50,803 nucleotides of DNA, taken from positions 1 through 50,803 of the forward strand of contig JAIXQE010000037.1 of NCBI GenBank assembly GCA_027485815.1, given 5' to 3'. The position numbers were made by a program, and so were the translations under genes. This stretch comes from Opitutaceae bacterium. GTDB lineage: Bacteria > Verrucomicrobiota > Verrucomicrobiia > Opitutales > Opitutaceae. The notes beneath the pieces are model-generated. The model saw only the letters and a program-made list of their open reading frames with translations, was not told the origin of the DNA and made no database searches. How positions within the stretch are numbered: the stretch's first letter is position 1; each line of letters starts with the position of its first letter. This document shows positions 2,420 through 34,463 of the stretch, in pieces.

Positions 2420-3022
2420 ATGTCCTACGCCGTCCAGCACCTGCGGGAAACCGCCGAGATCGTCGCCCGCCTGAACCCGGAGGACTGCGAGCGGTGCGTG
2501 CGGGAGCTGGTGGCGCTGCGGGCGCGGGGCGGCCGCCTGTTCATCCTCGGCGTGGGCGGCAGCGCGGCGAACGCCGGGCACGCGGTGAACGACTTCCGCA
2601 AGATCGGCGGCTTCGAGTGCTACGCGCCCACCGACAACGTGTCCGAGCTGACCGCGCGCACCAACGACGAGGGCTGGGCGACGGTGTTTGTCGAATGGCT
2701 GCGCGGCTCGCGGCTGCGGGCGGACGACGCCCTGCTGGTGCTCTCGGTGGGCGGGGGCAACCGCGAGCAGAATGTTTCCCCCAACTTGGTGGCGGCGGTG
2801 GACTTCGCCAAGCAGGTGGGCGCGCGGGTGATCGGCCTGCTGGGCAAGGACGGCGGGCACACGGCGAAGGTGGCGGACGCCTGCGTGATCGTACCGGTGG
2901 TGAATCCCGGCAACATCACGCCGCACAGCGAGGCGTTCCAGGCGGTCCTCTGGCACCTGTTTGTCTCCCACCCCGCGGTGAAGGTGAACCAGACCAAGTG
3001 GGAGTCGGTCGCGAAACCCTGA
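2420..3022 (+). CDS. SIS-domain sugar-phosphate isomerase (GmhA-like)
   Basis: 200 residues, a single SIS domain filling the protein. The first sugar-phosphate loop is GVGGSAANAGH (residues 44-54) and the second is SVGGGNREQN (109-118); a C-terminal helix contains H179 and H184. Size and motifs match the GmhA (sedoheptulose-7-phosphate isomerase) side of the SIS family, which converts sedoheptulose-7-P to D-glycero-D-manno-heptose-7-P in the cytoplasm. The internal segment TDNVSELTARTNDEGW belongs to a subgroup I recall from polysaccharide loci. The next two genes (HAD phosphatase, transaldolase) fit a heptose route. No heptose kinase or nucleotidyltransferase (HldE, HddA/HddC) is visible, so the product is inferred. 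No Shine-Dalgarno precedes the ATG. Confidence 0.8.
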   Translation: MSYAVQHLRETAEIVARLNPEDCERCVRELVALRARGGRLFILGVGGSAANAGHAVNDFRKIGGFECYAPTDNVSELTARTNDEGWATVFVEWLRGSRLRADDALLVLSVGGGNREQNVSPNLVAAVDFAKQVGARVIGLLGKDGGHTAKVADACVIVPVVNPGNITPHSEAFQAVLWHLFVSHPAVKVNQTKWESVAKP

Positions 3023-3032
3023 GCGCCGCCCC

Positions 3033-3590
3033 GTGAGCGCGGGAATGTCCCTGACCCGCCCGGCGGTCTTTCTCGACCGCGACGGTACCCTGAACCGGCA
3101 GGTCGTGCGCGATGGCCGGCCGTATCCGCCGGATCGGCTGGAGGACTTCGTCCTGTATCCCGATGTCCCCGCGGCCTGCGCGGCGCTGGCGGCGGCAGGA
3201 TTCACGCTGGTGGTGGCGACCAACCAGCCGGATGTCGGGCGGGGCACGCAGCGGCGGGAGGTGGTGGAGGCGATGCACGCGCGGCTGCTCGCCGCCGTGC
3301 CGCAGCTCGCGCGCGTCGAGGTGTGCTACGCCCCGGGAGGGGAAAACCCGCCCGACCCGCGCCGCAAGCCGGAGCCCGGGATGCTGCGCGACGCGGCGGC
3401 CGCGCTGGGCCTTGACCTCGCCCGTTCCTGGATGATCGGCGACCGCTGGCGCGACGTGGACTGCGGCCAGCGGGCGGGCGTGCGGACCGTCTTCATCGAT
3501 CGCGGTTATGCCGAGGCGCTGCGGGCGCCCCCGGACTTCACCGTCGACTCCTTCGCGGCGGCGGCGGACCTCGTCCTGCGTCACGCGTGA
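3033..3590 (+). CDS. HAD-IIIA phosphatase, GmhB-like
   Basis: 185 residues from GTG 3033; an ATG at 3045 is an alternative start. HAD motifs are complete: FLDRDGT with nucleophile D15 and acid D17, T63-N64 in VVATNQPDVG, K112 in RRKPEPGM, and IGDRWRDVD (135-143) for Mg2+. The KPEPGM segment is typical of the GmhB/HisB-N group, which removes the C1 phosphate of heptose-1,7-bisphosphate. The Zn-binding loop of classical GmhB (CxH...CxC just before RKP) is mostly lost: only C98 remains in CYAPGG, and Pro/Asp occupy the other positions. Specificity may therefore differ. The gene starts 10 bases after the SIS gene stop, so the two are probably co-transcribed. Confidence 0.8.
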   Translation: MSAGMSLTRPAVFLDRDGTLNRQVVRDGRPYPPDRLEDFVLYPDVPAACAALAAAGFTLVVATNQPDVGRGTQRREVVEAMHARLLAAVPQLARVEVCYAPGGENPPDPRRKPEPGMLRDAAAALGLDLARSWMIGDRWRDVDCGQRAGVRTVFIDRGYAEALRAPPDFTVDSFAAAADLVLRHA

Positions 3591-3601
3591 GTCCGGCCAA
3601 G

Positions 3602-3646
3602 CCCTGAGCGGAGTCGAAGGGGCGCGGGACTTCGGCCTTGCGCCCC
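3602..3646. repeat. Dispersed-repeat-like motif plus stem-loop
   Basis: In the 90-base gap between the HAD gene and the transaldolase, CCCTGAGCGGAGTCGAAGGG (3602-3621) matches a short imperfect palindrome (reverse strand CCCTTCGACTCCGCTCAGGG) that I recall as an intergenic repeat in many unrelated bacteria. It runs into a 7-base inverted repeat, GGGGCGC (3619-3625) and GCGCCCC (3640-3646), with a 14-base loop. No T-run follows, so it may be a repeat, a weak terminator or an mRNA-stabilising hairpin. Confidence 0.5.
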
Positions 3647-3680
3647 CATCCCCGCCGGCTCCTCAATCCCGGATCCGCCG

Positions 3681-4400
3681 ATGAAGTCCCTCCAAGAACT
3701 CACGATCCAGCTGTACGCCGACGGGGCTGACCGCGCGGGCATTCTGGAGCTCTACGCGAAGCCCTACATCCGCGGCCTGACCACGAACCCGACCCTGATG
3801 CGCAAGGCCGGGATCAAGGACTACGAGGCGTTCGCCCGGGACATCCTAGGCACCGTCACCGCCAAACCCCTCTCGCTGGAGGTGTTCTCGGACGAGTTCC
3901 CGGAGATGCGCCGCCAAGCCCTGCGCCTCGCGTCCTGGGGAAAGAACGTCTACGTGAAGATCCCGATCACCAATTCGCGCGGCGAGTCGGCGTTGCCGCT
4001 GATCCGGGAGCTGGGGGCGGAGGGGGTGAAGCTGAACGTGACCGCGCTGCTGACCCTGCCGCAGGTGGCGGGCGTGGCGGCGGCGTTGCCGGCGAACCTG
4101 CCGGCCGTGGTCTCGGTCTTTGCCGGGCGAATCGCGGACACGGGCGTCGACCCGATGCCGCTGATGCGGGCGGCGGGGGCGTTGCTGGCGGACCGGCCGC
4201 AGGCCGAGTTGCTGTGGGCGAGCACGCGCGAGGTGCTGAACATTTTGCAGGCCCAGGCCTGCGGCTGCGCGATCATCACCGTACCGCACGACATCCTCGC
4301 CAAGGCGGCCACCCTGCTCGGCCAGGACCTGAGCGCCCTCTCCCTCGACACCGTGCGGATGTTCGCGAAGGACGCCGCGGCCTGTGGTTTCCAGCTTTGA
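3681..4400 (+). CDS. Transaldolase
   Basis: 239 residues, the length of the short transaldolase/fructose-6-phosphate aldolase class. Visible features: an early Asp in LYADGA (D14), the TTNPTLM phosphate/sugar loop (34-40), and the Schiff-base lysine K93 in YVKIPIT. These enzymes move dihydroxyacetone units between sugar phosphates; a true transaldolase interconverts fructose-6-P plus erythrose-4-P with sedoheptulose-7-P plus glyceraldehyde-3-P. Sedoheptulose-7-P is the substrate of GmhA-type isomerases, which explains its place behind the SIS and HAD genes. A fructose-6-P aldolase activity is the alternative. The 3' end overlaps the next gene by 17 bases, suggesting translational coupling. 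No Shine-Dalgarno precedes the ATG. Confidence 0.85.
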   Translation: MKSLQELTIQLYADGADRAGILELYAKPYIRGLTTNPTLMRKAGIKDYEAFARDILGTVTAKPLSLEVFSDEFPEMRRQALRLASWGKNVYVKIPITNSRGESALPLIRELGAEGVKLNVTALLTLPQVAGVAAALPANLPAVVSVFAGRIADTGVDPMPLMRAAGALLADRPQAELLWASTREVLNILQAQACGCAIITVPHDILAKAATLLGQDLSALSLDTVRMFAKDAAACGFQL

Positions 4401-7400
4401 CCCGGCCGTCCCGCCGCTCCGCGCCTTGAATCTCCTCTTCGTCAATTACGGGGACTTCACTACCAACAGCCTGAACCACATCGGGGGGTTCGCCAACACC
4501 CTGAGCGCCGCGGGCCACGCCTGCGCGGTGGCGGTGTCGGGCGACCTGGAGAGCCTGCGGCACGTCGCCGATCCGCTGTTCATCCCGGTGACCCACGCCG
4601 AGGCGGTGGCGCGGCCGGGATTGTTCCCCGACGGTCGGCCCGCGGACCTGATCCACGCGTGGACCCCGCGGGAGGGCGTGCGGAAGTGCGTCCTCGCGTA
4701 CCAGCGGGCGGTGGTGGCCGCGGGGGGAACGCCGGCCCGCCTGATCGTCCACCTCGAGGACAACGAGCATTTCCTGCTCGAGAACTACACGGGACGGACC
4801 CTCGCCCAGCTGCGCGCCCTCCCGGCCGGGGAACTGGCGAGCCTGGTGGACGACCGTCTGCCGCACCCGTTCCGCGCCGAAAGTTTTCTGCGCCTGGCGG
4901 ACGCGGTCACGCACATCATCGCCCCGCTGGCGGAGTTCGCGCCGCCGGGGATTCCGACCCACCTGCTGCTGCCCGGGGTGGACTTCGCGCAGTACCGGCC
5001 CGACCTCGCGGACGCGGCGGAGACGGCGGCGGAGCGCGCGACGCTGGGGCTGCGTCCGGAGGAGCGGGTGCTGGTGTTCACCGGGAGCAACACCTTCGCC
5101 AACGAGCCGGAGATGCGGTCGCTGTACCTCGCGGTGGCGCTGCTGAATCAGCGGGGCATCCCCACCCGGCTGGTGCGCACCGGCCTCAATTCCCCCCGTT
5201 TTCTCGCGGGCTTGCCGGAGGATGTGCGGCGCCACGTGCTCGATCTGGGCTTCATCGCGAAGCGACGCCTGCCCGTGCTGCTGGCGCTGGCGGACGTGCT
5301 CGTGCAGCCGGGCCGGCCGGGACCGTTCAACGACTACCGGCTGCCGTCGAAGCTGCCCGAGTTCCTGGCCTCGGGGCGGCCGGTCGTGCTCCCGCGCGCC
5401 AACCTGGCCGCGCTGCTCGAGGACGGGCGCGATGCCCTGTTCCTGCCGCCGGCGGGCACCCCGGAGGAGATCGCGGCCGCCTGCCAGCGGCTCTTCGCCG
5501 ATCCCGCCCTCGCGGCGAACCTCGGCCGCCACGGCGCCGCCTTCGCCCGGCTGCACTTCGACCTCGCGCACAACACGAGCCTGCTGGCGGGTTTCTACGC
5601 CGAGACCGCCGCACGGGGGCCGCGCGCCGACTGGAGCGGGCTGACCGAGCCCACCGCGACGGATGCGACCCTCTTCGCCCAGGGGCTCGCGGCGCAGCTC
5701 AACGACGCCGCCGCCACCCTCGATGATCCCGCCGCCCGCCAGCTGGCGGCGCAGACCGATCTCCTCGCCGGGCTCGTCCGGCAGTTGGAGCAGGGCGTCG
5801 AGGCCGCCGCCCGCGACCGCGTGGCCGCGGCGCTCGCCGACCGCGACGCGGTCGTCGCCCGCGAGGAACTCACTCGCAATCACGCCCGGAACCTCGAGGC
5901 CCTGCTCGCCGCCGCGCGGGAGCATGCCGCCGGCCTCGAACGCGCCCGGGAACTCACCCAGAACCACGCGGACCACGTCGCCCGCGAGCGGGATCAGCAC
6001 CGCGTCCGCCGGGAGCAGGCCGACGTGCTCCTGCGGACCGCGCGCCTGCAGGTGACCGCCTACGAGAACGCGATCCTCGCGGCCGATGCCGAGTTGGCCG
6101 AGCTCCGGCCCGCCCTGGCCCAGACCCGCGCCGAGCTGGCCGAAACCCGGGCCCGCGCCGCCCGGGACGCCGCGGCCCAGGTCGAGGCCGCCCGCCACGC
6201 GGAAAACGAGCTGCGCGCCCGCCACGCGGCCGAACTCGCCGCCGCCGCCCAGCGCCTCCACCAGGCCCAGGACGTCATCCGGACCCGCGACGACAAGATC
6301 CGCCGGATGCACGAGTCCCTTTCGTGGCGCGCCACCGCCCCGTTCCGCGCGCTGCGCCGCACCCTGTTCGACGGACCCGCCGCGCCGGCGGCCGCCTCCG
6401 TCCTGCTCGGCAATGTCGATTACCCGCAGGACTGGTCCCGGATCGCGCCCACCCTCAACGTCCGCGGCTGGTCCCTCCACCGCGACCGGATCCCGCTGCA
6501 GGCCGTCCGCGCGCGCCTCGGCCGCACGCCCGCGGCGGTCGAGTTCGGCCTCGAGCGCCTCGACGTGCTCGACCACTTCCGCGACCATCCCGGGGCCGAG
6601 CGCTCCGGCTGGATCGTCAAGGTCGACGTCCCCCGCTTCGGCCGCCACCTGCTGCTCATCGAGGTGCAGGATGCCAACGGCACCTGGCACACGGCCGTGG
6701 CGCGTCAGGTCCGCCGGACGGCCGCGGCCGCGCCGCCGCCGCCCAACACCTACGCCGCGTGGGTCGCCGCCTACGACACCCTCACGCCCGAGGGTGCCGA
6801 CCAGATCCGCCGACGCCTCGCCGGCCTCTCGCGGAAGCCGCTCATCTCGGTCCTGCTGCCCGTGTACGACGCCCCCGAGCAGTGGCTGGTGCGGGCCATC
6901 GAGTCGGTGCGCCGCCAGCTTTATCCCCATTGGGAGCTCTGCATCGCCGACGACGCCTCGCGCCAGCCGCACGTCCGGCGCGTCCTCGAGCGCTACCAGC
7001 GCCGCGATCCGGAGCGGATCAAGGTGGTCTTCCGCGACACCAACGGGCACATCTCGGCGGCGTCCAACTCGGCCCTCGCCCTCGCGCACGGCGAGTTCCT
7101 CGCCCTCCTGGACCACGACGACGAGCTGCGGCCCCATGCCCTCGCCTGCGTCGCCCTGGAGCTCGACGCGCATCCCGCCGCGGACCTCGTGTACAGTGAC
7201 GAGGACAAGGTGGACGAGAACGGCCACCGGTACGACCCGTACTTCAAGCCGGACTGGAACCCGGACCTGTTCAACGTCCAGAATTTCATCAGCCACCTCG
7301 GCGTCTACCGGACGCTGCTGGTGCGCGAGGTCGGCGGATTCCGGGTCGGTTACGAGGGTTCGCAGGATTGGGATCTCGCGATGCGGGTGATCGAGCGGAG

Positions 7401-8478
7401 CGCGCCGGAGCGCATCCGCCACATCCCGAAGATCCTCTACCACTGGCGCAGCGTCCCCGGCTCCACGGCGCTGCTGATCGGGGCCAAGAACTACGCGGCG
7501 CAGGCCGCGGAAAAGGTGATCAGCGAGCATTTCACCCGGATCAACGTGGAGGCCCGCCTCTCGCCGACCAAGGGCTCGTACTGGCGCGTCCATTACCCGC
7601 TGCCCGCGCCCGCCCCGCGCGTCACGCTGGTCATCCCCACCCGCAACCGCCTTGAGGTGCTGCGCCCCTGCCTGGAGAGCATCCTCGGCCGCACCACGTA
7701 CCCGGACTTCGAGGTCCTGATCGTCGACAACGGGAGCGACGACCCGGCGACGCTGGCCTATCTGGACGAGGTCGCGCGTCCCGCGGCCGGCCGGGCGCCC
7801 GTGCGCGTCCTGCCGCAACCGGGGGAGTTCAACTACTCGGCCCTGAACAATGCGGGCGTGGCCGCCACCGACGCGCCGCTCGTGGCGCTGCTGAACAACG
7901 ACCTCGAGGTCATCCACGGCGACTGGCTCGACGAGATGGTGTCGCACGCGCTCCGGCCGGAGATCGGCTGCGTCGGCGCGAAGCTTTATTATCCGGACGA
8001 CCGCATCCAGCACGCGGGCGTGATCCTGGGCGTCGGCGGGGTCGCGGCGCACGCCTGGCAGACGCACCCGCGCGGCGCGGCCGGCCAGGCGCACCGCAAC
8101 CTGCTCCAGCAGAACCTCTCGGCCGTGACCGCGGCGTGCCTCGTCGTGCGGCGCGAGGTCTACCTCCAGGCGGGCGGCTTCAACGCGGACGAGCTCAAGG
8201 TCGCCTTCAACGACGTGGACTTCTGCCTGAAGGTCCGCGCGGCCGGTTACCGCAATCTCTGGACGCCCTACGCCGAGCTCTACCACCACGAGAGCGCCAG
8301 CCGCGGCAAGGAGGACACCCTTGAGAAGCGGGACCGCTTCCGCGCCGAGGTGGAGCACATGCGGGCGACGTGGGGCGAGCTGCTGGACCGCGATCCGGCG
8401 TACAATCCGAACCTCACGCTCACCATCAACGACTTCACCCTCGCGCTGCCCCCGCGCCCCTGGCCGCCGCTGGCGTGA
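4384..8478 (+). CDS. Giant GT4/coiled-coil/GT2/GT2 glycosyltransferase
   Basis: About 1364 residues from GTG 4384; TTG 4426 is also possible, removing 14 residues. Domains in order: a GT-B/GT4-like domain (about 10-420) whose C-terminal half has SKLPEFLASGRPVV near 322-335; a long Ala/Arg/Glu-rich coiled coil (about 425-650) ending in SLSWRATAPFRALRR; a beta domain with GWSLHRD (about 690-790); a first GT2 domain beginning LISVLLPVYD (about 820) with D910-H-D-D; and a second GT2 domain beginning RVTLVIPTRN (about 1079) with LLNNDLEV around D1173. GT-A domains use the Asp motif to hold metal and NDP-sugar. Three active sites on one chain suggest processive or sequential assembly of a repeat unit on the cytoplasmic face. 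No membrane helix is evident. It is the first dedicated glycan gene after the heptose group. Confidence 0.85.
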   Translation: MVSSFDPAVPPLRALNLLFVNYGDFTTNSLNHIGGFANTLSAAGHACAVAVSGDLESLRHVADPLFIPVTHAEAVARPGLFPDGRPADLIHAWTPREGVRKCVLAYQRAVVAAGGTPARLIVHLEDNEHFLLENYTGRTLAQLRALPAGELASLVDDRLPHPFRAESFLRLADAVTHIIAPLAEFAPPGIPTHLLLPGVDFAQYRPDLADAAETAAERATLGLRPEERVLVFTGSNTFANEPEMRSLYLAVALLNQRGIPTRLVRTGLNSPRFLAGLPEDVRRHVLDLGFIAKRRLPVLLALADVLVQPGRPGPFNDYRLPSKLPEFLASGRPVVLPRANLAALLEDGRDALFLPPAGTPEEIAAACQRLFADPALAANLGRHGAAFARLHFDLAHNTSLLAGFYAETAARGPRADWSGLTEPTATDATLFAQGLAAQLNDAAATLDDPAARQLAAQTDLLAGLVRQLEQGVEAAARDRVAAALADRDAVVAREELTRNHARNLEALLAAAREHAAGLERARELTQNHADHVARERDQHRVRREQADVLLRTARLQVTAYENAILAADAELAELRPALAQTRAELAETRARAARDAAAQVEAARHAENELRARHAAELAAAAQRLHQAQDVIRTRDDKIRRMHESLSWRATAPFRALRRTLFDGPAAPAAASVLLGNVDYPQDWSRIAPTLNVRGWSLHRDRIPLQAVRARLGRTPAAVEFGLERLDVLDHFRDHPGAERSGWIVKVDVPRFGRHLLLIEVQDANGTWHTAVARQVRRTAAAAPPPPNTYAAWVAAYDTLTPEGADQIRRRLAGLSRKPLISVLLPVYDAPEQWLVRAIESVRRQLYPHWELCIADDASRQPHVRRVLERYQRRDPERIKVVFRDTNGHISAASNSALALAHGEFLALLDHDDELRPHALACVALELDAHPAADLVYSDEDKVDENGHRYDPYFKPDWNPDLFNVQNFISHLGVYRTLLVREVGGFRVGYEGSQDWDLAMRVIERSAPERIRHIPKILYHWRSVPGSTALLIGAKNYAAQAAEKVISEHFTRINVEARLSPTKGSYWRVHYPLPAPAPRVTLVIPTRNRLEVLRPCLESILGRTTYPDFEVLIVDNGSDDPATLAYLDEVARPAAGRAPVRVLPQPGEFNYSALNNAGVAATDAPLVALLNNDLEVIHGDWLDEMVSHALRPEIGCVGAKLYYPDDRIQHAGVILGVGGVAAHAWQTHPRGAAGQAHRNLLQQNLSAVTAACLVVRREVYLQAGGFNADELKVAFNDVDFCLKVRAAGYRNLWTPYAELYHHESASRGKEDTLEKRDRFRAEVEHMRATWGELLDRDPAYNPNLTLTINDFTLALPPRPWPPLA

Positions 8479-20910: not shown

Positions 20911-23198
20911 GCCCTGCCCGCCTCCTGCGTCTCCTCTGGCTGACCGCCGGTCTCGGGCTCGTCCTCGGCTGGTGGCGCGAGGTGGTGCCCGACTGGCCCG
21001 CCCCGCCCCGGGCGCTGCCCCGCGCGGACGGCCGCAGCGGCGTGCCGTGGCTGGCGGGTCCGTTCCTGCCCGACGGCCGGCTGCAGTGGGGCGACCTGCC
21101 CGCGCACCTCGAGACGGCGAGCTCCCACGTGGGCGGCGACGCGTTCACGGGCCGGGCGGAGAGCGCGTGGTTCCGGGCGAACCGGAGCACCATCCGCGTC
21201 GGGGTAGCGGGCTATCCCGGGCGCCCCGGGTGCGGGGTGCGACTCGAGTTCCGCGATACCGCCGGCGCGATCACGGCCGTGCCGTACCGGGGCCCGGCTC
21301 CGGCGGAGACGTGGCAGGTATGGGAGGTGAGCCGGCCGCGGGATGCGGTCGCCGTGCGGGTGGTCGGGGAGGACGACTCCGCGGCGCACCAAGGCTGGGT
21401 GGCGTTCTCGCATCCGTTCCGGTCGTGGCCCCTCGCGGCGTCCGCGGCGTGGGCGGCGGCGCGGGTGTTCACCACGCTCGCGCTCGCCCTCGTGCTGCTC
21501 TGGGGACCCGGACTGTTCGCGGCCCCGGCGGGGGCCTCGGCGGGCGTGCGGGCGTGCTGGTTCCTGGGCACCGGCCCCCTCGGGCTGGCGGCCAGCGGGG
21601 TGCTCCTGTGGGCGACCGCGCCGTGGCTCCCCGTCGGCGCGCGTGGGTTGCTCGCGGCCGGACTGCTCGGCGCCCTGTGGTGGGTGGTGGGCGCGCGGGC
21701 GCGGCGCCTCGGCTGGCAAATCCCGGGGGAGAGCGGGTGGCGGCACGCCGTGGTCGCTGCGGCGCTCGCGGTGGCGGCCGTGGCCACCAAGGCGTCCTAC
21801 TCCACGGGCACCGCGGGCGAGCTCTTCCGGGGCACCGTGTCGCGCAATTTCGCCCTCTCCGACCGGATCGACAGCCGCTTCAGCTTCTACGCGGTGCAGG
21901 CCGCGGCCCACGGCTGGGCCCCGACGGCGGAGCGGACCGAGCGGTTCTATTATCCCTGGACCTACTTCAGCCGGGGACCCTTGCCCGGGCTGGTGGCGGT
22001 TCCGCTCGTGCTCGGCACGGGAGGGAGGCCGCCGACCGAGCACGCGGAGGAGACGTGGAGCCCGTTCGACGCCGGAGGGTTCGCCACGTACCGGATCGTT
22101 CAGTACGCGCTGGCCGCCGCGGTCATCCCCGCGGCCTACCTGCTGCTCCTGCCGCTCGCCGGGGCCGGCTGGGCCCTGGCGGGAGCGGGGCTCCTCGCGC
22201 TCACCCCCTTCGGCCTGCACGAGATCCTGTTCACGTGGCCCAAGTGGGCCGCGACCGCCTGGCTCGCAGCCGCGTTCACCCTGGTTCACGCCCGCCAACC
22301 CGCCGCCGCCGGCTTCGCCGTCGGCCTCGGCTTCCTCCACCATCCGCTGGTGCTGCTCTGGACGCCCTGGCTCGCCGTTTGGTGCGCCGGCCGCCACGGC
22401 CCCGGGCGCCGGGCGATCGCGGCCGGCGTCACCCGCCTGACCGTCGCCAGCGCGCTCGTGGTGCTCCCGTGGATGCTGGCCGGACGGCTGCTGCCGCACC
22501 TGCCGGAGACGCCGTTCGCCGGCCAGGGCGGGTTCATCCGTTACTTCCTGCTCGCCGACGCCCAGCACGCCACGCTGGAGACGTGGCTGCGCACCCGGTG
22601 GATGAACTTCGCCAACACGTTCGTCCCGCTCCACCTGCTGCTCGACCCCGCGTCGGCCGGGCACTTCCGGCTCAGCTCCGCGTACGAACCCTCCTCCGCG
22701 CTGACGCGGCTGACCTTCCTCTGGTGGAACACCCTGCCCTTCGCCCTGGGTTTGAGCCTCTGGGGCCTGACCCTCGCGGCGCTGACCCGGGCCTGGCGCA
22801 CGCACCGGGCGGCGCTCGGGCTTTTCGCCGCCGCCCCGGCGCTGCTGCTCATCGTCTACTGGGGGTGGGAGCCGCTCGGGTTGATGCGGGAATGCGGGCA
22901 TCCCCTGCTGCTCGCCCTCGTGGTCCTCGCGATCCTCGTGGCCGCCGGGGAGCGGCCGGGCCCCGCGGCGTGGCTCGCGCATCCGGCCACGCCGTGGCTC
23001 CAGGTGCCCGGCACCCTCGTGATGTGCTGGCTTCCCGTGCTCGCCAACCCGTCGCCGCCGGCCGTCCGCCTTGCACACCTCGACGGGCTCCACCTCACCC
23101 TCCACCTCGCCGCCCTGGGAACCCTCGCGTGGATGCTTGCCCGCGCCCGGCGCGACCCCACCCTGAACCCGACGTTATGCCCAAGACCCTGCTCGTGA
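20907..23198 (+). CDS. GT-C-like membrane protein, family A
   Basis: 763 residues from GTG 20907, overlapping the upstream stop as GTGA. An N-terminal helix is followed by a beta domain (about 55-165) ending [17 protein letters not shown], then many hydrophobic helices with loop motifs [13 protein letters not shown] and FTWPKWAAT. The plan matches the N-terminal half of the fusion protein at 16265. The beta domain also resembles the C-terminal domain of the protein at 9556. A GT-C role at the outer face of the membrane is inferred; an unrelated polytopic protein cannot be excluded. The 3' end overlaps the epimerase gene by 22 bases. Confidence 0.65.
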
Positions 23199-24238
23199 CC
23201 GGATCCTCCGGCCTGATCGGCTCCGAAGTCTGCACCTACTTCACCCGGGAGCTCGGCTACGCCGTGCACGGCGTGGACAACAACCAGCGCGCCGTCTTCT
23301 TCGGCCCCCAGGGCGACACCCGCTGGAACCAGCGGCGGCTGGCGGCCGACCTGCCCGGCTTCACCCACCACGAGCTCGACATCCGCGACCGCGCCGGGGT
23401 GCTCGCGCTGGTGCGGACGGTGCGCCCATCGGCCATCGTGCACACCGCGGCCCAGCCGAGCCACGACCGCGCCGCCGCGATCCCCTTCGACGATTTCGAC
23501 ACCAACGCGGTGGGCACCCTCAACCTGCTCGAGGCCGCCCGCCAGGCCTGCCCGGAATCGCCCTTCGTGCACATGAGCACGAACAAGGTCTACGGCGACG
23601 CTCCCAACCGGATCGCGCTGCGCGAACTGCCCACCCGCTGGGACTACGCCGACCCCGCCTACGCCGGGGGCATCGCGGAGACCTTCACCATCGACCAGTC
23701 GAAGCACTCCCTCTTCGGCGCCTCCAAGGTCGCTGCCGACGTGATGGTCCAGGAGTACGGCCGGTACTTCAACTTGCCCACGTGCGCCCTCCGCGGCGGC
23801 TGCCTGACCGGCCCCAACCACAGCGGCGTCGAGCTCCACGGCTTCCTCAGCTACCTCGTGAAGTGCAACCTCGAGGGCCGCGAGTACCGGGTCTTTGGCT
23901 ACAAGGGCAAACAGGTGCGCGACAACATCCACTCGCTCGACGTCGCCCGCTTCATGGCCGCCTTCGTCGCCGCCCCCCGCGCCGGCGAGGTCTACAACCT
24001 CGGCGGCGGCAAGGCCAACTCGTGCTCGATCCTCGAGGCCTTCCAGATCGCGGAAAAGCACTCCGGTCGCGCCCAGGTGCACACCTACGTAGACCAGGCG
24101 CGGGCCGGCGACCACATCTGCTATTACAGCGACCTGACCAAGATGCGGGCTCATTACCCGCGCTGGGATATCACCCATACCCTTGACGACACCATCGGTC
24201 AGATCGTCGCCGCGTGGCGCCGACGCCCCGCCGGCTGA
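23177..24238 (+). CDS. CDP-paratose 2-epimerase-like SDR
   Basis: 353 residues from ATG 23177. Extended SDR fold: the NAD loop is [10 protein letters not shown] near residue 8; STNKVYGD (about 133-140) carries the Ser/Thr and is diagnostic of the CDP-paratose/tyvelose 2-epimerase group; [11 protein letters not shown] has the lysine, but Phe stands where the catalytic Tyr of YxxxK usually is (I read F-G-A-S-K). [19 protein letters not shown] is another group signature. Known members epimerise C2 of CDP-paratose to give CDP-tyvelose. No CDP-glucose cytidylyltransferase, dehydratase or E1/E3 gene is visible here, so the substrate may be another NDP-sugar. Confidence 0.75.
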
Positions 24239-24290: not shown

Positions 24291-24902
24291 GTGCGTCTCG
24301 TCCTCCTGTTCTGCCTGCTTGCCGCCGGCGCAGCCCGCGCCACCAGCGTGGTGCCGCCGAGCTTCGCCGAGTTGGTCGCGGAGGCGGAGCTCATCGTGCG
24401 GGCCACCCCGATCGCGCGGGAGACGCGCCGCGAGGCGGCGCCGGACGGCACCGCGATCCTCCGCACCTACGTGACCCTCGCCGTCGAGCGCACGCTAAAG
24501 GGGGCGCCAACCGATCGCCTCACGCTCGCGTTCCTCGGCGGGGAACTCGGCGACGAGGCGATGACCGTCCGCGGCGTGCCCCGGCTCGAACCGGGGGCCG
24601 TCGACTACGTCTTCATCGCCGGCAACGGCCGCGTCTTTTGCCCGCTGGTCGGCCTCGGCCACGGACGATTCCGGGTCCTGCGCGACGGCGCGACCGGACG
24701 CGAGTTCCTCGCCCGGGAAAACCACGAGCCGCTGACCGATCCCGCCGAGGTGGGACGGCCGCTGGACCCGGCCGTGACGGCGCTGCCCCTGCTGGCGACG
24801 CGCGCCGGGGAACGCCGCGCGCTCGCCCTCTCGCCGACGGCCTTCGAGGCCGCGGTCACGGCGGAGCTCCAACGCGGCTCCGTGCCGGTGCGCACCCGAT
24901 GA
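24291..24902 (+). CDS. Exported protein of unknown function, matrixin partner
   Basis: 203 residues from GTG 24291. The frame is open further upstream, but this start gives a clean signal peptide (MRLVLLFCLLAAGAARA, then TSVVPPSF). The mature part is a compact alpha/beta domain of about 150 residues with LVAEAELIVRATP, VERTLKGAP, FLGGELGD and GAVDYVFIAGNG. I recall similar small exported proteins directly upstream of matrixin-like proteases in this phylum, but I cannot name a function. The stop overlaps the protease start as ATGA, so the two are probably made in fixed proportion. A chaperone, inhibitor or shared-substrate role is possible (inference). Confidence 0.7.
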   Translation: MRLVLLFCLLAAGAARATSVVPPSFAELVAEAELIVRATPIARETRREAAPDGTAILRTYVTLAVERTLKGAPTDRLTLAFLGGELGDEAMTVRGVPRLEPGAVDYVFIAGNGRVFCPLVGLGHGRFRVLRDGATGREFLARENHEPLTDPAEVGRPLDPAVTALPLLATRAGERRALALSPTAFEAAVTAELQRGSVPVRTR

Positions 24903-26671
24903 CGCCGCGGATCCTCCGCCTTGCCGCCACCGGCGCCGGCCTCGCGGCGGCCGCGTCCGCCTACGACACCACCGGCGGCACCTGGGCCAGCGGCGACATC
25001 GTCCTGCACCTGCAGCTCGGCCGGCCCGCCACGCCGCTGCCGGATGGGGCCGCGGACTGGAACGCGGTCGCGGCCGGCGCGCTGGACGAGTGGAACGCCC
25101 AGCTCGGCCGGAGCCGGCTCGTGCCGGCGGCCGACTCCACCGCCGAGGTGCGCAACGGCAACCGGATCAACAACGTCGTGTTCCGTCCCGACGTCTTCGG
25201 CACCGCCTTCGACAGCCGCACCCTCGCGGTCACCGTCGGCTTCACCAACCGCGCCACCGCGCGCTTCACCGAGCAGGACGTGGTCTTCAACGCCAACCTC
25301 ACGTGGAGCTCCTACCGCGGTCCGCTGCGGTCCGGCACCCGCGACCTGCGCCGCGTGGCGCTGCACGAGTTCGGTCACGTGCTGGGCCTCGACCACCCGG
25401 ACGAGGCGACCCCGCCCCAGACGGTGAGCGCGATCATGAACAGCACCGTGGGCAACCTGGAGGCGCTCACGGCGGACGACATCGCCGGGGCCCGCGCGCT
25501 CTACACCACGGGCTCCTCCGGGCCGTTGCCCACCCTGCCGGTCATCGTCGCCCAACCCCAGAGCCGCACCGTGCCCGTCGGCGGCAGCTACACCTTCAGC
25601 GTCACCGCGACCGGCTCCGGCCCCTTCACCTACGCCTGGTTCTTCCGTGCGGACGGGGCGCTGTTCGCCGAGTCGCTGCCCTTCGCGACCGGCGCCAGCT
25701 ACACCCTGGGATCCGTGCAACGCGGGGACGCCGGCACCTACACCGCCTACGTGCGCGGACCCGGCGGGCTCACCCTCAGCAACGCCGCGCGCCTGACCGT
25801 CTCGTCCGGACCGGCCCTCACGCCCGCCACCCAGCTCGCCAACCTGTCCACCCGCGGCCGCGTCGAGGGCGGGGTGGGCGTGCTGATCGCCGGCCTCGCG
25901 GTCACCGGGAGCGCCCCGAAAAGCGTCCTCGTGCGCGCCGCCGGGCCGGCGCTGGCCGGCGTGGGCGTCGCGGACGCGCTGCCCGGACCCCGCCTGCGGG
26001 TGGTGGGCGCGGACGGCCGGACGCTGGCGGAGAACGAGGCCTGGGACGCCGCGGGCGCGGGCCCGGCCGTGGCGGCGGCCGCGCAGCGGCTCGGGGCGTT
26101 TCCCTTCGCGGCCGGCAGCCGCGATGCGGCGCTCCTGCTCACGCTCGCCCCCGGCACCTACACCGCCGTGGTCGCGGGCGGGGATCCGCGCGGCGGCACC
26201 GCGCTCGTGGAGGTTTATGATGCGGAGCCGGCCGCGACCGGCCGCCGGCTGGTGAACATCGCGACGCGCGGCTGGGTGGCGGGCGAGTCCGAGGTGCTCA
26301 TCGCCGGGCTGGTCGTCGCCGGGCCCGGACCCCGCACCTACCTGATCCGGGGCGTCGGGCCGACCCTGCTGCGCGCGCCCTTCAACCTCGCGGAGGCCCT
26401 GCGCGACCCGCAGCTCGAGCTGTACCGCGGCGAGACGCTGCTGCGGGAGAACGACGACTGGGACACCCCCGCGAACGGGATGGCCGCGCTGCGCGCCGCC
26501 GCGGCGGCCACCGGCGCGTTCGCCCTGGCCGAGACGCGCGACAACGTCCTCCGCACCGGGCTCGACGGCGCGATGCTGGTCACCCTCGCCCCCGGCAACT
26601 ACACCGCCAAGCTGAGCGGTTTCGGCGGCGACGCCGGGGTCGGCCTGATCGAGGTCTACGAGGTGCCCTGA
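24899..26671 (+). CDS. Secreted matrixin-type metalloprotease with Ig and beta repeats
   Basis: 590 residues. A short signal peptide precedes a zinc metalloprotease domain (about 20-205) with HEFGHVLGLDH (H156, E157, H160 and H166 as zinc ligands and base) and a downstream SAIMNS Met-turn: a metzincin of the matrixin (M10-like) type, without an obvious cysteine-switch propeptide. An Ig-like domain follows (about 214-302, PVGGSYTFSV to NAARLTV). Then come two repeats of about 130 residues (about 312-443 and 447-590), each running from a TRG...LIAGL start through a G-P-x-L motif and LAPGxYTA to an EVYD/EVYE end. Such repeats are frequent on secreted proteins of Opitutus-like bacteria (recalled). 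It should act outside the cell, perhaps on surface or matrix proteins. Confidence 0.8.
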   Translation: MTPRILRLAATGAGLAAAASAYDTTGGTWASGDIVLHLQLGRPATPLPDGAADWNAVAAGALDEWNAQLGRSRLVPAADSTAEVRNGNRINNVVFRPDVFGTAFDSRTLAVTVGFTNRATARFTEQDVVFNANLTWSSYRGPLRSGTRDLRRVALHEFGHVLGLDHPDEATPPQTVSAIMNSTVGNLEALTADDIAGARALYTTGSSGPLPTLPVIVAQPQSRTVPVGGSYTFSVTATGSGPFTYAWFFRADGALFAESLPFATGASYTLGSVQRGDAGTYTAYVRGPGGLTLSNAARLTVSSGPALTPATQLANLSTRGRVEGGVGVLIAGLAVTGSAPKSVLVRAAGPALAGVGVADALPGPRLRVVGADGRTLAENEAWDAAGAGPAVAAAAQRLGAFPFAAGSRDAALLLTLAPGTYTAVVAGGDPRGGTALVEVYDAEPAATGRRLVNIATRGWVAGESEVLIAGLVVAGPGPRTYLIRGVGPTLLRAPFNLAEALRDPQLELYRGETLLRENDDWDTPANGMAALRAAAAATGAFALAETRDNVLRTGLDGAMLVTLAPGNYTAKLSGFGGDAGVGLIEVYEVP

Positions 26672-30811: not shown

Positions 30812-31004
30812 CCGGCCGCCGCGCTACGTAGCGTCCGCCGCGCACGCGGGAGGGTTTCACCCGGGAAAAGCCTTGTCGGCCGACCCGCTCCCGCGCCTTT
30901 ATTGCAATCTCTTTTCAACCCGGATTCCCGCCGCCGCCGATGTCGCCTCGAGCCCTCTCCCCTTCGTCCCCCATGAACCCGGCCCTCGGAACGGAGGCGC
31001 GCCG
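30812..31004. other. Intergenic region upstream of rfbC
   Basis: 193 bases. It holds a perfect 12-base palindrome CGCTACGTAGCG (30822-30833), an AAAGCCTTGTCG block (30867-30878) like the one before the YfhO gene, and an A/T-richer patch CCTTTATTGCAATC (30896-30909) that could serve as a -10 region. A 22-codon frame from ATG 30940 ends at 31008 and overlaps the rfbC start as GTGA. A promoter for rfbCDBA is therefore likely here, but the boxes are not decisive. Confidence 0.45.
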
Positions 31005-31008
31005 GTGA
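30940..31008 (+). CDS. Possible short leader ORF coupled to rfbC
   Basis: 22 codons from ATG 30940 (an internal in-frame ATG at 30973 would give 11). The peptide is Pro/Ser/Ala/Arg-rich with no run of one amino acid, so attenuation is not suggested. Its TGA overlaps the rfbC GTG as GTGA, the coupling arrangement used by real neighbours in this window. It could equally be chance in GC-rich DNA. Confidence 0.2.
   Translation: MSPRALSPSSPMNPALGTEARR
30993..30997 (+). promoter_or_regulatory. GGAGG ribosome binding site of rfbC
   Basis: GGAGG seven bases before GTG 31005. It fixes the rfbC start at the GTG instead of the in-frame TTG at 30873, and it is one of only two clear Shine-Dalgarno matches seen in the window. 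Confidence 0.6.
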
Positions 31009-31550
31009 ACGTCATCCGCGGTGAGATCGAGGGCCCGCTGATCCTCGAACCCAAGGTGTTCGGGGATGCCCGGGGATTCTTCGTCGAGTCCTACAATCTG
31101 GAACGCTATCGCGAGGCCGGAATCACGGCGGAGTTCGTGCAGGACAACTTCTCCTTCTCCGGCCGCGGCACCCTGCGCGGGATGCACGCCCAGAACCCGT
31201 CGCCGCAGGGCAAGCTCGTGTCGGTCTGGCAAGGCGAGGTCTGGGACGTCGCGGTCGACCTGCGGCGCGGATCGCCGACCTTCGGGCGCTGGATGGGCGT
31301 GACGCTCTCCGCCGAGAACAAGCGTCAGTTCTGGGTGCCGCCCGGCTTCGCCCACGGCTTCGTGGTCACCGGCGAGCACGCGCTCTTCCACTACAAGTGC
31401 ACCGCGCTGTATGCGCCGAAGGACGAGATCGGCTTCCGCTGGGATGATCCGGCGGTCGGGATCCCCTGGCCGGTCACCGCCCCGCTGCTCTCGGCCCGCG
31501 ACGCGCGCGCCCCGCTGCTGCGGGACCTCCCGCCGGAAAAATTGTTCTGA
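31005..31550 (+). CDS. rfbC: dTDP-4-dehydrorhamnose 3,5-epimerase
   Basis: 181 residues from GTG 31005, the usual RmlC length. Cupin fold with QDNFSFSGRGTLRGMH (catalytic-type H61), KLVSVWQGEVWDVAVDLR (70-87), FWVPPGFAHGF (109-119) and HYKCTALY around Y130, all typical of RmlC/RfbC. It epimerises C3 and C5 of dTDP-4-keto-6-deoxyglucose, the second-last modification step of dTDP-L-rhamnose synthesis in the cytoplasm. It is first in an uninterrupted rfbC-rfbD-rfbB-rfbA set, and rfbD begins six bases after its stop. Confidence 0.93.
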   Translation: MNVIRGEIEGPLILEPKVFGDARGFFVESYNLERYREAGITAEFVQDNFSFSGRGTLRGMHAQNPSPQGKLVSVWQGEVWDVAVDLRRGSPTFGRWMGVTLSAENKRQFWVPPGFAHGFVVTGEHALFHYKCTALYAPKDEIGFRWDDPAVGIPWPVTAPLLSARDARAPLLRDLPPEKLF

Positions 31551-31555
31551 ACGCG

Positions 31556-32434
31556 ATGCCCCGGAAACGCCTCCTCCTCTTCGGTGCGCAGGGCCAGGTC
31601 GCCTGGGAGCTCCGCCGCACCCTCGCGCCGATGGCCGACGTCACCTGCGTCGGCCGCGCCGGGGCCGACCTCGCGGATCCGGAGGCGATCCGCCGGGTGA
31701 TCGCCGCCGCAGCGCCCGACGTGATCGTCAATGCCGCCGCCTACACCGCGGTGGACAAGGCGGAGACTGAGACCGCGCTCGCCACCCGGATCAACGCCGA
31801 CGCGCCCGGGGTGATGGCCACCGAGGCCGCCCGCCGCGGCGCCCTGCTGGTGCATTATTCCACCGACTACGTCTTCGCCGGCACGCAGGCCACGCCCTAC
31901 ACCGAGGACGATCCGACCGGTCCACTCGGCGCCTACGGCCGCACCAAGCTCGCGGGGGAGGAGGCCGTGCGCGCCGCCGGCGGCAACCACCTCATCTTCC
32001 GCCTCTGCTGGGTCTACGGGAACCGGGGCGCCAATTTCCTCCTCACGATGCAGCGCCTGGCCCGCGAGCGGGACGAGGTCCGCGTCGTCGCCGACCAGCA
32101 CGGCTGCCCCACCTGGTCGCGGATGATCGCCGAGGCGACCGCGCACGCCCTCCGCTGCCTGCACACCCGGGAGGACGCGCGCGCCGTCACCGGCACCTAC
32201 CACCTCTGCGCCTCAGGCCGGACAACCTGGCACGAGTTCGCCCGCGCCATCATCGACGCGGTGCCGGCGGACCGCCGCCGCTGCCGCGAAGTCCGCGCCA
32301 TCACCACCGCCGAGTACCCCACGCCCGCGCGCCGGCCGGCCTACTCGGTCCTCGACACCACCAAACTCGAGCGCGTCTTCGGCCTGCGCCTGCCCGACTG
32401 GCGGGAGAGCCTGGGCCAGGTGCTCGAGGGCTAA
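31556..32434 (+). CDS. rfbD: dTDP-4-dehydrorhamnose reductase
   Basis: 292 residues. Rossmann loop [10 protein letters not shown] (about 10-19), a typical RmlD feature; [13 protein letters not shown] (about 60-72); YSTDYVFAG; and [10 protein letters not shown] with the catalytic YxxxK. It reduces dTDP-4-keto-L-rhamnose to dTDP-L-rhamnose with NAD(P)H. Length and motifs are complete. It lies between rfbC and rfbB, with 19 bases to rfbB. Confidence 0.93.
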
Positions 32435-32453
32435 CCCACCTTCCTTTCCCACC

Positions 32454-33521
32454 ATGAACCTCCTCGTCACCGGCGGCTGCGGCTTCATCGGCAGCAACTT
32501 CATCCGGCAGCGGCTGCTCGAGGCCGGCTCGCCCCTGCGCCGACTGGTCAACCTCGACGCCCTCACCTACGCGGGCAACCCGGCCAACCTCGCCGACCTC
32601 GCGGGGGATCCGCGCTACACCTTCGCGCACGGCGACATCGGTGACGCCGCCCTCGTGGCCCGCCTGCTGGCGGAGCACGCCATCGACGCCGTGGTGAACT
32701 TCGCGGCCGAGTCCCACGTCGACCGCTCGATCGATTCACCGGAGCCGTTCGTGCAGACCAACGTCGTCGGCACCCTCCGCCTGCTCAACGCCGCGCGCCA
32801 GCACTGGACCCGCCTGCCGGAGCCGCGCCGCGCCGCCTTCCGTTTCCTGCACGTCTCCACCGACGAGGTGTACGGCACGCTCACGCCGACCGACCCGGCG
32901 TTCACCGAGGAGACGCCGTTCGCCCCCAATTCCCCGTACGCCGCCTCGAAGGCGGCCAGCGACCACCTCGTCCGCAGCTACCAGCACACCTTCCAGCTGC
33001 CGACGCTGACGACCAACTGTTCGAACAACTACGGGCCGTACCACTTCCCGGAGAAGCTGATCCCGCTGATGATCCTCAACGCCCTCGAGGGGAAGCCGCT
33101 GCCCGTCTACGGCGACGGCCAGCAGATCCGCGACTGGCTCTACGTCGAGGACCACGCGGCGGCCATCTGGCTGGTGCTGCAGCGCGGACGCACGGGCGAG
33201 ACCTACAACATCGGCGGCCTGAACGAGAAACCGAACCTCGAGATCGTGCGCACCATCTGCGCCCTGCTCGACCGCAAGGCGCCGCGCGCCGACGGCCGCT
33301 CCTACGCGGAGCAGATCACCTACGTCGCGGATCGCCCCGGCCACGACCGCCGGTACGCGATCAACTGCGCCAAGCTCCAGCGCGAGCTCGGCTGGGCGCC
33401 CCGCGAGTCCTTCGCCACCGGCATCGAGAAGACCGTCGACTGGTACCTGACCCACCGGAGCTGGGCCGCCGACATCACCGCCAACCGCTACGCGCGCGAA
33501 CGCCTCGGCGCGAAGTCCTGA
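32454..33521 (+). CDS. rfbB: dTDP-glucose 4,6-dehydratase
   Basis: 355 residues. NAD loop [12 protein letters not shown] (about 6-17), [11 protein letters not shown] (about 83-93), STDEVYG with the acid/base Asp-Glu pair typical of 4,6-dehydratases, [10 protein letters not shown] carrying YxxxK, and [17 protein letters not shown]. It converts dTDP-glucose to dTDP-4-keto-6-deoxyglucose, the committed step to dTDP-rhamnose and other deoxysugars. All active-site positions I can place are intact. The ATG follows a C/T-rich stretch without a Shine-Dalgarno. Confidence 0.95.
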
Positions 33522-33542
33522 ACCCCGGTCGCGCCCTTCCCG

Positions 33543-34463
33543 ATGAGCCCGGTCCCGCCCTCCTCCTCCCGCCCGCCCTTCACCTCCCGCAAGGGCATCG
33601 TCCTCGCCGGCGGCTCCGGCACGCGCCTCTACCCGCTCACGGTGGCGGTCTCCAAGCAGCTGATGCCGGTGTACGACAAGCCGATGGTGTACTACCCGCT
33701 GTCGGTGCTGATGCTCTCCGGCATCCGCGAGATCCTGATCATCTCGACCCCCGCCGACCTGCCCCTCTTCCGCCGCCTGCTCGGCGACGGCTCGGCCTTC
33801 GGGGTGAAGTTCTCGTACGCGGAACAGGCCCGGCCGGAAGGCCTGGCGCAGGCCTTCCACATCGCGGGCGACACCGGGTTCCTGCGCGACGAGCCGGCCG
33901 CCCTGGTGCTCGGCGACAACCTGTTCTACGGCCACGACCTCGTGAAATCCCTCGAGCGGGCATCCCTCCGCCAGGACGGCGCCACGATCTTCGGCTACCA
34001 CGTGGCCGATCCCCGCAGCTACGGCGTGGTGGAGTTCGCCCCAGACGGACGCGTCGTCTCCCTCGAGGAAAAGCCGGCGCAACCCAAGTCGAACTACGCC
34101 ATCCCCGGAATATACTTCTACGACGCGGAGGTCGTGGCGCGCGCGCGCAGCCTCCGGCCCTCGGCCCGCGGCGAACTCGAGATCACGGACCTCAATCGCC
34201 TCTACCTCGAGGCGGGGCGCCTCCACGTGGAGCTCCTCGGCCGCGGCACCGCCTGGCTCGACACCGGCACGCACGACTCGCTGCTCGAGGCCGGCCAGTT
34301 CGTTTCCGTGATCGAGAACCGGCAGGGCTTGAAGATCGCCTGCCTCGAGGAGATCGCCTGGCGCCAGGGCTGGATCGACCGCGCCACCCTCGAGGCCAAC
34401 GTGACCCGGCTCGGCAAGTCCTCCTACGGCGCCTACCTGCGCCGGGTGGTGCTGGGCGCCTGA
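33543..34463 (+). CDS. rfbA: Glucose-1-phosphate thymidylyltransferase
   Basis: 306 residues, slightly longer than usual because of a Ser/Pro-rich N-terminus (about 1-15). The nucleotidyltransferase signature is [17 protein letters not shown] (17-33), followed by [29 protein letters not shown] and LGDNLFYG. It makes dTDP-glucose from dTTP and glucose-1-P. This completes the four-enzyme dTDP-L-rhamnose pathway. An internal ATG is possible, but the residues before the signature make the choice of ATG 33543 uncertain by about 15 residues. Confidence 0.94.

Follow-up and report, generated by a model that had tools for sequence, protein, structure and literature searches.

Three adjacent genes of an Opitutaceae bacterium, encoding an isomerase, a phosphatase and a transaldolase, form a unit, and we give an even chance to the reading that they open a pathway devoted to making a nucleotide-activated higher-carbon aldose, most likely an octose, for a surface glycan. 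The window analysed here is contig C35 (JAIXQE010000037.1) in its entirety (50,803 bases), taken from a draft genome of 4.08 Mb in 232 contigs that is 97% complete. The three open reading frames lie on its plus strand: a GmhA-like SIS isomerase of a divergent subfamily (2420-3022; 200 amino acids; Pfam SIS_2), a HAD-IIIA phosphatase of the GmhB/HisB-N kind (3033-3590; 185 amino acids; Pfam HAD families and TIGR01656) and a transaldolase of the TIGR02134 (transald_staph) family (3681-4400; 239 amino acids; Pfam TAL_FSA and NCBIfam). A first-pass annotation had noticed the transaldolase beside the other two genes and proposed a dedicated carbon-supplying step tied to GmhA-like and GmhB-like enzymes; the three genes are indeed at this place, and linkage and co-occurrence bear out the proposed tie.

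Co-occurrence was examined in 120 genomes of the family. A TIGR02134 protein over the cut-off of the model is present in 51 of them and an SIS orthologue, at an identity of 70% or higher, in 49; both are found in 49 genomes, the transaldolase only in two, the isomerase only in none, and neither in 69. In the two genomes with the transaldolase only (G107 and G109), its gene lies near a contig start. Some TIGR02134 match at E 0.001 or better occurs in 60 of the 120 genomes, nine of these matches being weaker than the cut-off and at least one (G114) fragment-like. Because the family genomes are kin by descent and not independent, a Fisher value on this co-occurrence overstates the case. Linkage was examined in the regions around 40 of the 51 family transaldolases, the window's own being left out. 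The isomerase, phosphatase and transaldolase genes are all present, in the same order and on the same strand, in 36 of the 40 loci, and therefore their adjacency is not a matter of chance. The exceptions are L056, L069, L075 and L090, of which the last begins at a contig edge; L056 and L069 come from genomes whose isomerase gene is on another contig, with the kinase and nucleotidyltransferase genes. The usual order upstream of the isomerase gene is Gfo/Idh/MocA oxidoreductase, GHMP kinase and nucleotidyltransferase. Within the fetched stretches, which are often cut by contig ends, the kinase is found in 33, the nucleotidyltransferase in 35 and the oxidoreductase in 27 of the 40 loci.

A wider view was obtained by searching genome contigs with the SIS alignment. 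Of at least 575 confirmed relatives, the best 80 were taken, and with two plasmid loci (Lawsonia and Rhizobium jaguaris) they make 82 loci. The best 80, with SIS identities of 65-96%, include, going by their record titles, members from Verrucomicrobia, Acidobacteria, Chloroflexi, Chlorobiaceae, Geobacteraceae, Betaproteobacteria, Polyangiaceae, Bradyrhizobium and Legionella, and they are mostly from metagenome bins, in which contigs may be misplaced. The probes represented the five core proteins, namely the SIS isomerase, HAD phosphatase, transaldolase, GHMP kinase and nucleotidyltransferase, and four accessory proteins, namely the Gfo/Idh/MocA oxidoreductase, an epimerase, an SDR enzyme and a nucleotide-sugar dehydrogenase (UGD); the UGD probe was one Bradyrhizobium protein, and its count is a lower bound. 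Among the 82 loci, many of them cut by contig ends, the phosphatase is matched in 79, the nucleotidyltransferase in 75, the kinase in 70 and the transaldolase in 69, and the oxidoreductase, epimerase, SDR enzyme and UGD are matched in 47, 40, 35 and 22, respectively. When the count is confined to the 51 loci that extend 7 kb or more upstream and 3 kb or more downstream of the isomerase gene, and a match anywhere in the locus is accepted, the kinase, nucleotidyltransferase and phosphatase are each found in 50 and the transaldolase in 47 (accessory proteins in the same order: 36, 35, 28 and 18). Furthermore, the pairwise distances of the five core proteins are correlated for all ten pairs (r = 0.80-0.88) in the 53 loci in which all five genes are nearly complete, a level reached by 0 of 999 permutations for any pair. 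This correlated divergence is what a unit passed on or transferred as a whole would be expected to show. Five plasmid records carry an SIS protein of at least 58% identity, and all five also carry the transaldolase (at least 50%) and the kinase (at least 59%). Plasmid 3 of Lawsonia intracellularis (L115) has the whole module in a rearranged form, with isomerase-phosphatase-transaldolase placed before UGD-SDR-oxidoreductase-kinase-nucleotidyltransferase.

The composition of the unit varies in Bradyrhizobium, where the isomerase occurs in 11 of 242 genomes drawn from a larger group. Four loci (L208-L211) have all nine genes. In five others (L212-L216), the isomerase gene adjoins the transaldolase gene, and the probes used gave no match to the kinase, nucleotidyltransferase or phosphatase. 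The neighbours in L214, the locus read in detail, are an HldE-like bifunctional kinase/nucleotidyltransferase, a GmhB-like HAD protein, a transketolase part, two epimerase-like proteins, a Gfo/Idh/MocA-like protein and a nucleotide-sugar dehydrogenase, and most of its open reading frames, including that of the HldE-like enzyme, have counterparts in four other loci of the set. Locus L217 has the isomerase, phosphatase, nucleotidyltransferase, kinase and oxidoreductase with no transaldolase match, and L218 has the isomerase only. In most members, the isomerase and the transaldolase thus seem to be central to the unit, and the kinase and nucleotidyltransferase seem exchangeable.

The window transaldolase scores above the NCBIfam cut-off of TIGR02134 (305.4 vs 281.95 bits). 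In an alignment with TalB and FsaA of E. coli, it agrees with TalB at each of the 13 positions compared. Two of them are E96 and F178, which correspond to Q59 and Y131 in FsaA; we take these residues to distinguish the transaldolase type of active site from that of fructose-6-phosphate aldolase. The other module transaldolases are likewise identical at the 13 TalB positions, except that the partial row L169 is without some of the columns. Because of the TalB residues at these positions, the enzyme should be a transaldolase and not a fructose-6-phosphate aldolase. The latter identity, which the first-pass annotation had named as one that would refute its heptose supply, was rejected on the transaldolase type of the active-site positions and on the score with TIGR00875 (79.6 bits, cut-off 245.95).

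The AlphaFold2 model of the window SIS protein (pLDDT 87.4) has the GmhA fold, with GmhA and DiaA chains tied as its matches (Z 20-21; root-mean-square deviation 2.1-3.6 over 163-181 residues). Its score with the GmhA model TIGR00441 is far below the cut-off (51.6 vs 209.45 bits). Residue E65 of E. coli GmhA is replaced by D in 18 of 18 module rows, the G68-R69 stretch is missing from the module proteins, and the loop around S119-S124 contains an insertion of six residues, or of four in one row. Near the C-terminus, the alignment has a gap of two residues, so that either Q174/H184 or E171/H179 may correspond to Q172 and H180 of GmhA; all four of these residues are invariant in 30 rows. Just upstream of the isomerase gene, the window encodes a BNR-repeat, sialidase-like protein (1165-2325), which occupies the same place in a close relative (L068 of genome G081); none of the 12 other loci tested gave a match to it at E 1e-15. 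The window HAD protein exceeds two general cut-offs (TIGR01656, 111.6 vs 84.15; TIGR01662, 83.5 vs 44.6) and is below those of all GmhB models listed (NF006506, 90.9 of 178; TIGR00213, 49.1 of 149.6; NF050049, 49.9 of 250). The alignment shows it to be without the GmhB-type CxH...CxC loop, which we assume to be the zinc loop of GmhB. This motif is present in 42 of the 49 HAD rows from outside Opitutia, among which a Bradyrhizobium locus is counted twice (as L195 and L208), and it is nearly absent in the proteins of the Opitutia loci L052-L091 and L117-L152 (1 of 38 and 0 of 35 in two overlapping sets).

The two enzymes that would complete the core were described in the first-pass annotation as missing, which holds for the window and does not hold for the system. 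They are neighbours of the trio in relatives, and in the window's own genome the kinase and a Gfo/Idh/MocA oxidoreductase are found together on contig C37 (7289-9264). Thus four of the five core genes are found in the draft, with the kinase on another contig. The close relatives G081 and G104 both have the nucleotidyltransferase. The operon is thus split in the lineage of the window, and the fifth gene may lie unseen in an assembly gap.

The analysis establishes which genes these are, that they are linked, co-occur and diverge in a correlated way, and that the active-site positions are of the transaldolase type; the reactions, all of them, are inferred, as are the chain length of C8, the nucleotide and the glycan. 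The transaldolase would transfer a C3 unit (dihydroxyacetone) from fructose 6-phosphate or sedoheptulose 7-phosphate onto ribose 5-phosphate, yielding octulose 8-phosphate. The SIS enzyme would convert this ketose to octose 8-phosphate, the GHMP kinase (on contig C37 here, an operon neighbour in relatives) would add a 1-phosphate, the HAD enzyme would remove the 8-phosphate, and the nucleotidyltransferase would produce a nucleoside diphosphate (NDP)-octose. Where present, the epimerase, nucleotide-sugar dehydrogenase, Gfo/Idh/MocA and SDR enzymes may modify the NDP-octose before glycosyltransferases use the product. A PDB search with the epimerase and the oxidoreductase returned generic UDP-glucose 4-epimerases and inositol-dehydrogenase-like relatives, by which the product is not indicated.

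This set of enzymes resembles that of the lincosamide octose pathway. According to an excerpt of PMC5854111, LmbR makes an octulose from ribose 5-phosphate with fructose 6-phosphate or sedoheptulose 7-phosphate as the C3 donor. In the portion of PMC4351081 seen, the transaldolase LmbR, the C8 isomerase LmbN, the C8 phosphatase LmbK and the C8 guanylyltransferase LmbO are given as confirmed, and the C8 kinase LmbP, the dehydrogenase LmbL, the epimerase LmbM and the oxidoreductase LmbZ as predicted. The conversion of guanosine diphosphate (GDP)-octose to GDP-lincosamide by LmbM, LmbL, CcbZ and CcbS is described in an extract of PMC12945683. Two Streptomyces plasmid matches were considered as lincosamide-like clusters and rejected: that of Streptomyces sp. 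3211 has a hexitol phosphatase and a lactone oxidase beside the transaldolase, and the SIS gene of strain SAT1 is near an APH(7'') match, which we read as resembling a hygromycin-type cluster.

Several observations weigh against the octose pathway. A close homologue of the nucleotidyltransferase was not found in the window's own draft genome, and the nucleotidyltransferases of two relatives have MurU as their best NCBIfam match (113.7-115 of 250), with HddC scoring lower. The best NCBIfam match of the kinase is the heptose kinase model HddA (NF049969), at 145.5 bits in the window's own genome against a cut-off of 600, and the likeness of the kinase and the HAD protein to heptose enzymes is expected for an octose or a heptose product alike. 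The HldE-like enzyme and the transketolase part of L214 would also suit a heptose. A transaldolase match is absent from four of the 51 wide-view loci, and matches to the oxidoreductase, epimerase, SDR enzyme and UGD are absent from 15, 16, 23 and 33 of them. Transaldolases of 46-53% identity are found on plasmids of Lactobacillaceae and Staphylococcus, and therefore this type of transaldolase is not specific to octoses. Finally, no LmbS-type aminotransferase was among the 24 features listed over 30.6 kb in Lawsonia, a table that may be incomplete; with an SDR enzyme present and no aminotransferase listed there, a hydroxy octose may be formed in place of an amino octose.

The foremost alternative is a dedicated supply of heptose, in which the transaldolase would make sedoheptulose 7-phosphate from fructose 6-phosphate and erythrose 4-phosphate, the SIS enzyme would isomerise it to D-glycero-D-manno-heptose 7-phosphate, and the HddA-like kinase, the HAD enzyme and the nucleotidyltransferase would lead to an NDP-heptose, as in the GmhA-HddA-GmhB-HddC route. 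We consider this alternative possible and favour an octose over a heptose as the activated sugar. The best solved relative of the kinase is 3k85, named heptose 1-phosphate kinase, and 4n3o, a putative heptose 7-phosphate kinase, is also a relative, with putative sugar kinases ranked between the two. These names, the HddA match of the kinase, the CxH...CxC loop in most HAD proteins outside Opitutia, the match of the SIS model to GmhA structures and the HldE-like enzyme of the Bradyrhizobium variant all speak for a heptose. However, the HddA scores of three kinases (144.5-157.8 of 600) and the HddC scores of the nucleotidyltransferases of two relatives (74.1-77.8 of 300) are below the cut-offs, and the SIS protein departs from E. 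coli GmhA at E65 and in the S119-S124 loop. In addition, a Rhizobium leguminosarum plasmid carries an SIS gene, a HAD gene and a 42% identical GHMP kinase gene with no transaldolase among 14 features over 17 kb, a single case with a gene table that may be incomplete.

Moreover, the genome has a separate set of heptose-like proteins: a GmhA-like protein on contig C232 (183.7 bits of 209.45), an HldA-like kinase on C112 (331.1 of 345) that adjoins a GmhB-like HAD protein (best match NF006506, 111.8 of 178), and an HldC-like protein on C8 (156.6 of 181.5). All four score below the curated cut-offs, although no other NCBIfam model matches them better, and the only transaldolase of the genome is unlinked to this set. 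Because such genes exist separately, the trio is probably not the ordinary lipopolysaccharide heptose route, and we set that identity aside as unlikely, no search aimed at HldD having been made. This set also makes the borrowing of HldE, which the first-pass annotation had put forward, less likely and unnecessary. Of the HddA and HddC that it had suggested looking for elsewhere in the genome, an HddA-like kinase is on C37 and no nucleotidyltransferase was found in this draft. Of the two products that it had left side by side, heptose is unproven and now the less likely, and its other option, a different sugar phosphate, is favoured in the form of an octose.

Alternatively, the transaldolase and the SIS enzyme may act on some other ketose phosphate, such as a C9, branched or deoxy one, or they may lead to a C7 sugar with an unusual configuration. 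Accessory enzymes vary between loci and a transketolase part lies near the Bradyrhizobium variant, which would suit such a product; however, no specific evidence points to it and the known octose or heptose logic accounts for the five-enzyme core, and we therefore regard it as unlikely. It is more improbable still that the transaldolase is a housekeeping enzyme of the pentose phosphate pathway with incidental neighbours. This explanation draws on the fact that the window transaldolase is the sole PF00923 match in its own draft genome, and on the naming of TIGR02134 after a Staphylococcus transaldolase, presumably a housekeeping enzyme. However, 69 of the 120 family genomes have neither a TIGR02134 protein over the cut-off nor the isomerase, 49 of the 51 genomes with the transaldolase also have the isomerase, and the linkage to sugar genes is maintained in loci of several phyla. 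Furthermore, 14 of 16 genomes chosen among the loci outside Opitutia have a further PF00923 match (L186 and L181 have one only), which argues that the module transaldolase is dedicated. A housekeeping role only was thus ruled out by the co-occurrence with the isomerase and the further copies elsewhere. Least credible of all, to the point of rejection, is that the module is the operon for bradyrhizose, the C10 sugar of photosynthetic Bradyrhizobium (known here from parts of PMC4743980 and PMC9912281): a related epimerase is in the module and some Bradyrhizobium have the module, yet the isomerase occurs in only two of 24 Bradyrhizobium genomes with PF00124 reaction-centre genes, and this count, with that among all 242 genomes, makes its absence from the bradyrhizose operon likely.

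Downstream of the trio, the window encodes a three-domain glycosyltransferase (4384-8478, plus strand; 1364 amino acids; Pfam), with a GT4-type domain followed by two GT2-type domains, whose open reading frame starts at 4384 and overlaps the end of the transaldolase gene at 4400. A partial tblastn match to it occurs anywhere in the locus in 35 of the 40 family loci and in 21 of the 51 wide-view loci, and the enzyme may be one that uses the activated sugar. Farther along are domains of methyltransferases, epimerases and glycosyltransferases (Pfam), and a dTDP-rhamnose-like set (dTDP_sugar_isom, RmlD_sub_bind, a GDP_Man_Dehyd-type dehydratase and NTP_transferase) lies at 30873-34463; because of these genes, the window looks like a surface-glycan region. 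An open reading frame of 1088 amino acids (20972-24238) has an NAD-epimerase domain at residues 741-1061 only, the remainder being without a Pfam match, and its true start may be far downstream of the listed one. Another among the glycan genes (24638-26671) matches matrixin (Peptidase_M10) and an immunoglobulin domain.

More broadly, nucleotide-activated octoses may be a widespread component of bacterial surface glycans that has gone unrecognised. They would be produced by a mobile five-enzyme module found in several phyla, and the pathway to the sugar of lincosamide antibiotics would be a specialised relative of this module. We hold this generalisation tentatively, at somewhat short of an even chance. 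In the portions of the open-licence PMC literature seen, we recognised no earlier description of the module in surface glycans. If the proposal is true, a rare chemistry of antibiotic sugars is common in the surface glycans of environmental bacteria, the combination of the SIS isomerase, TIGR02134 transaldolase, GHMP kinase, nucleotidyltransferase and HAD phosphatase would be a signature predicting strains with C8 sugars, and the GmhA-, GmhB- and HddA-like annotations in such clusters would shift from heptose to octose. Even if the product is a heptose, a dedicated transaldolase that is almost always paired with sugar activation would be a layout for which those portions of the literature gave no description.

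Among known systems, the TIGR02134 transaldolases of the Staphylococcus type share with the module enzyme the passing of the family cut-off and the transaldolase type of the active-site positions, whereas the module enzyme is linked to sugar-nucleotide genes and is patchy in the family (51 of 120). The ADP-L-glycero-D-manno-heptose pathway has the isomerase and phosphatase superfamilies in common with the module, and the Bradyrhizobium variant has an HldE-like enzyme; however, the window genome has its GmhA-, GmhB-, HldA- and HldC-like genes elsewhere. The GDP-D-glycero-alpha-D-manno-heptose pathway likewise uses an SIS isomerase, a GHMP kinase, a HAD-IIIA phosphatase and a nucleotidyltransferase, and its chemistry follows the same order; it differs in that the module proteins tested are far below the curated equivalog cut-offs and in that a transaldolase is linked in 47 of 51 loci. 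For the lincosamide pathway, we take LmbN to have an SIS domain, LmbP to be a GHMP kinase, LmbL to be UDP-glucose dehydrogenase-like and LmbZ to be Gfo/Idh/MocA-like. Compared by enzyme class and gene set only, which itself counts against the octose, the fuller module has a class counterpart for each of LmbR, LmbN, LmbP, LmbK, LmbO, LmbM, LmbL and LmbZ, and all five classes of the core (LmbR, N, P, K and O) occur together in the module relatives. The module order of oxidoreductase, kinase and nucleotidyltransferase equals the listing order Z-P-O. Unlike the lincosamide pathway, the module stands beside glycosyltransferases in loci of several phyla, and an SDR enzyme is often present.

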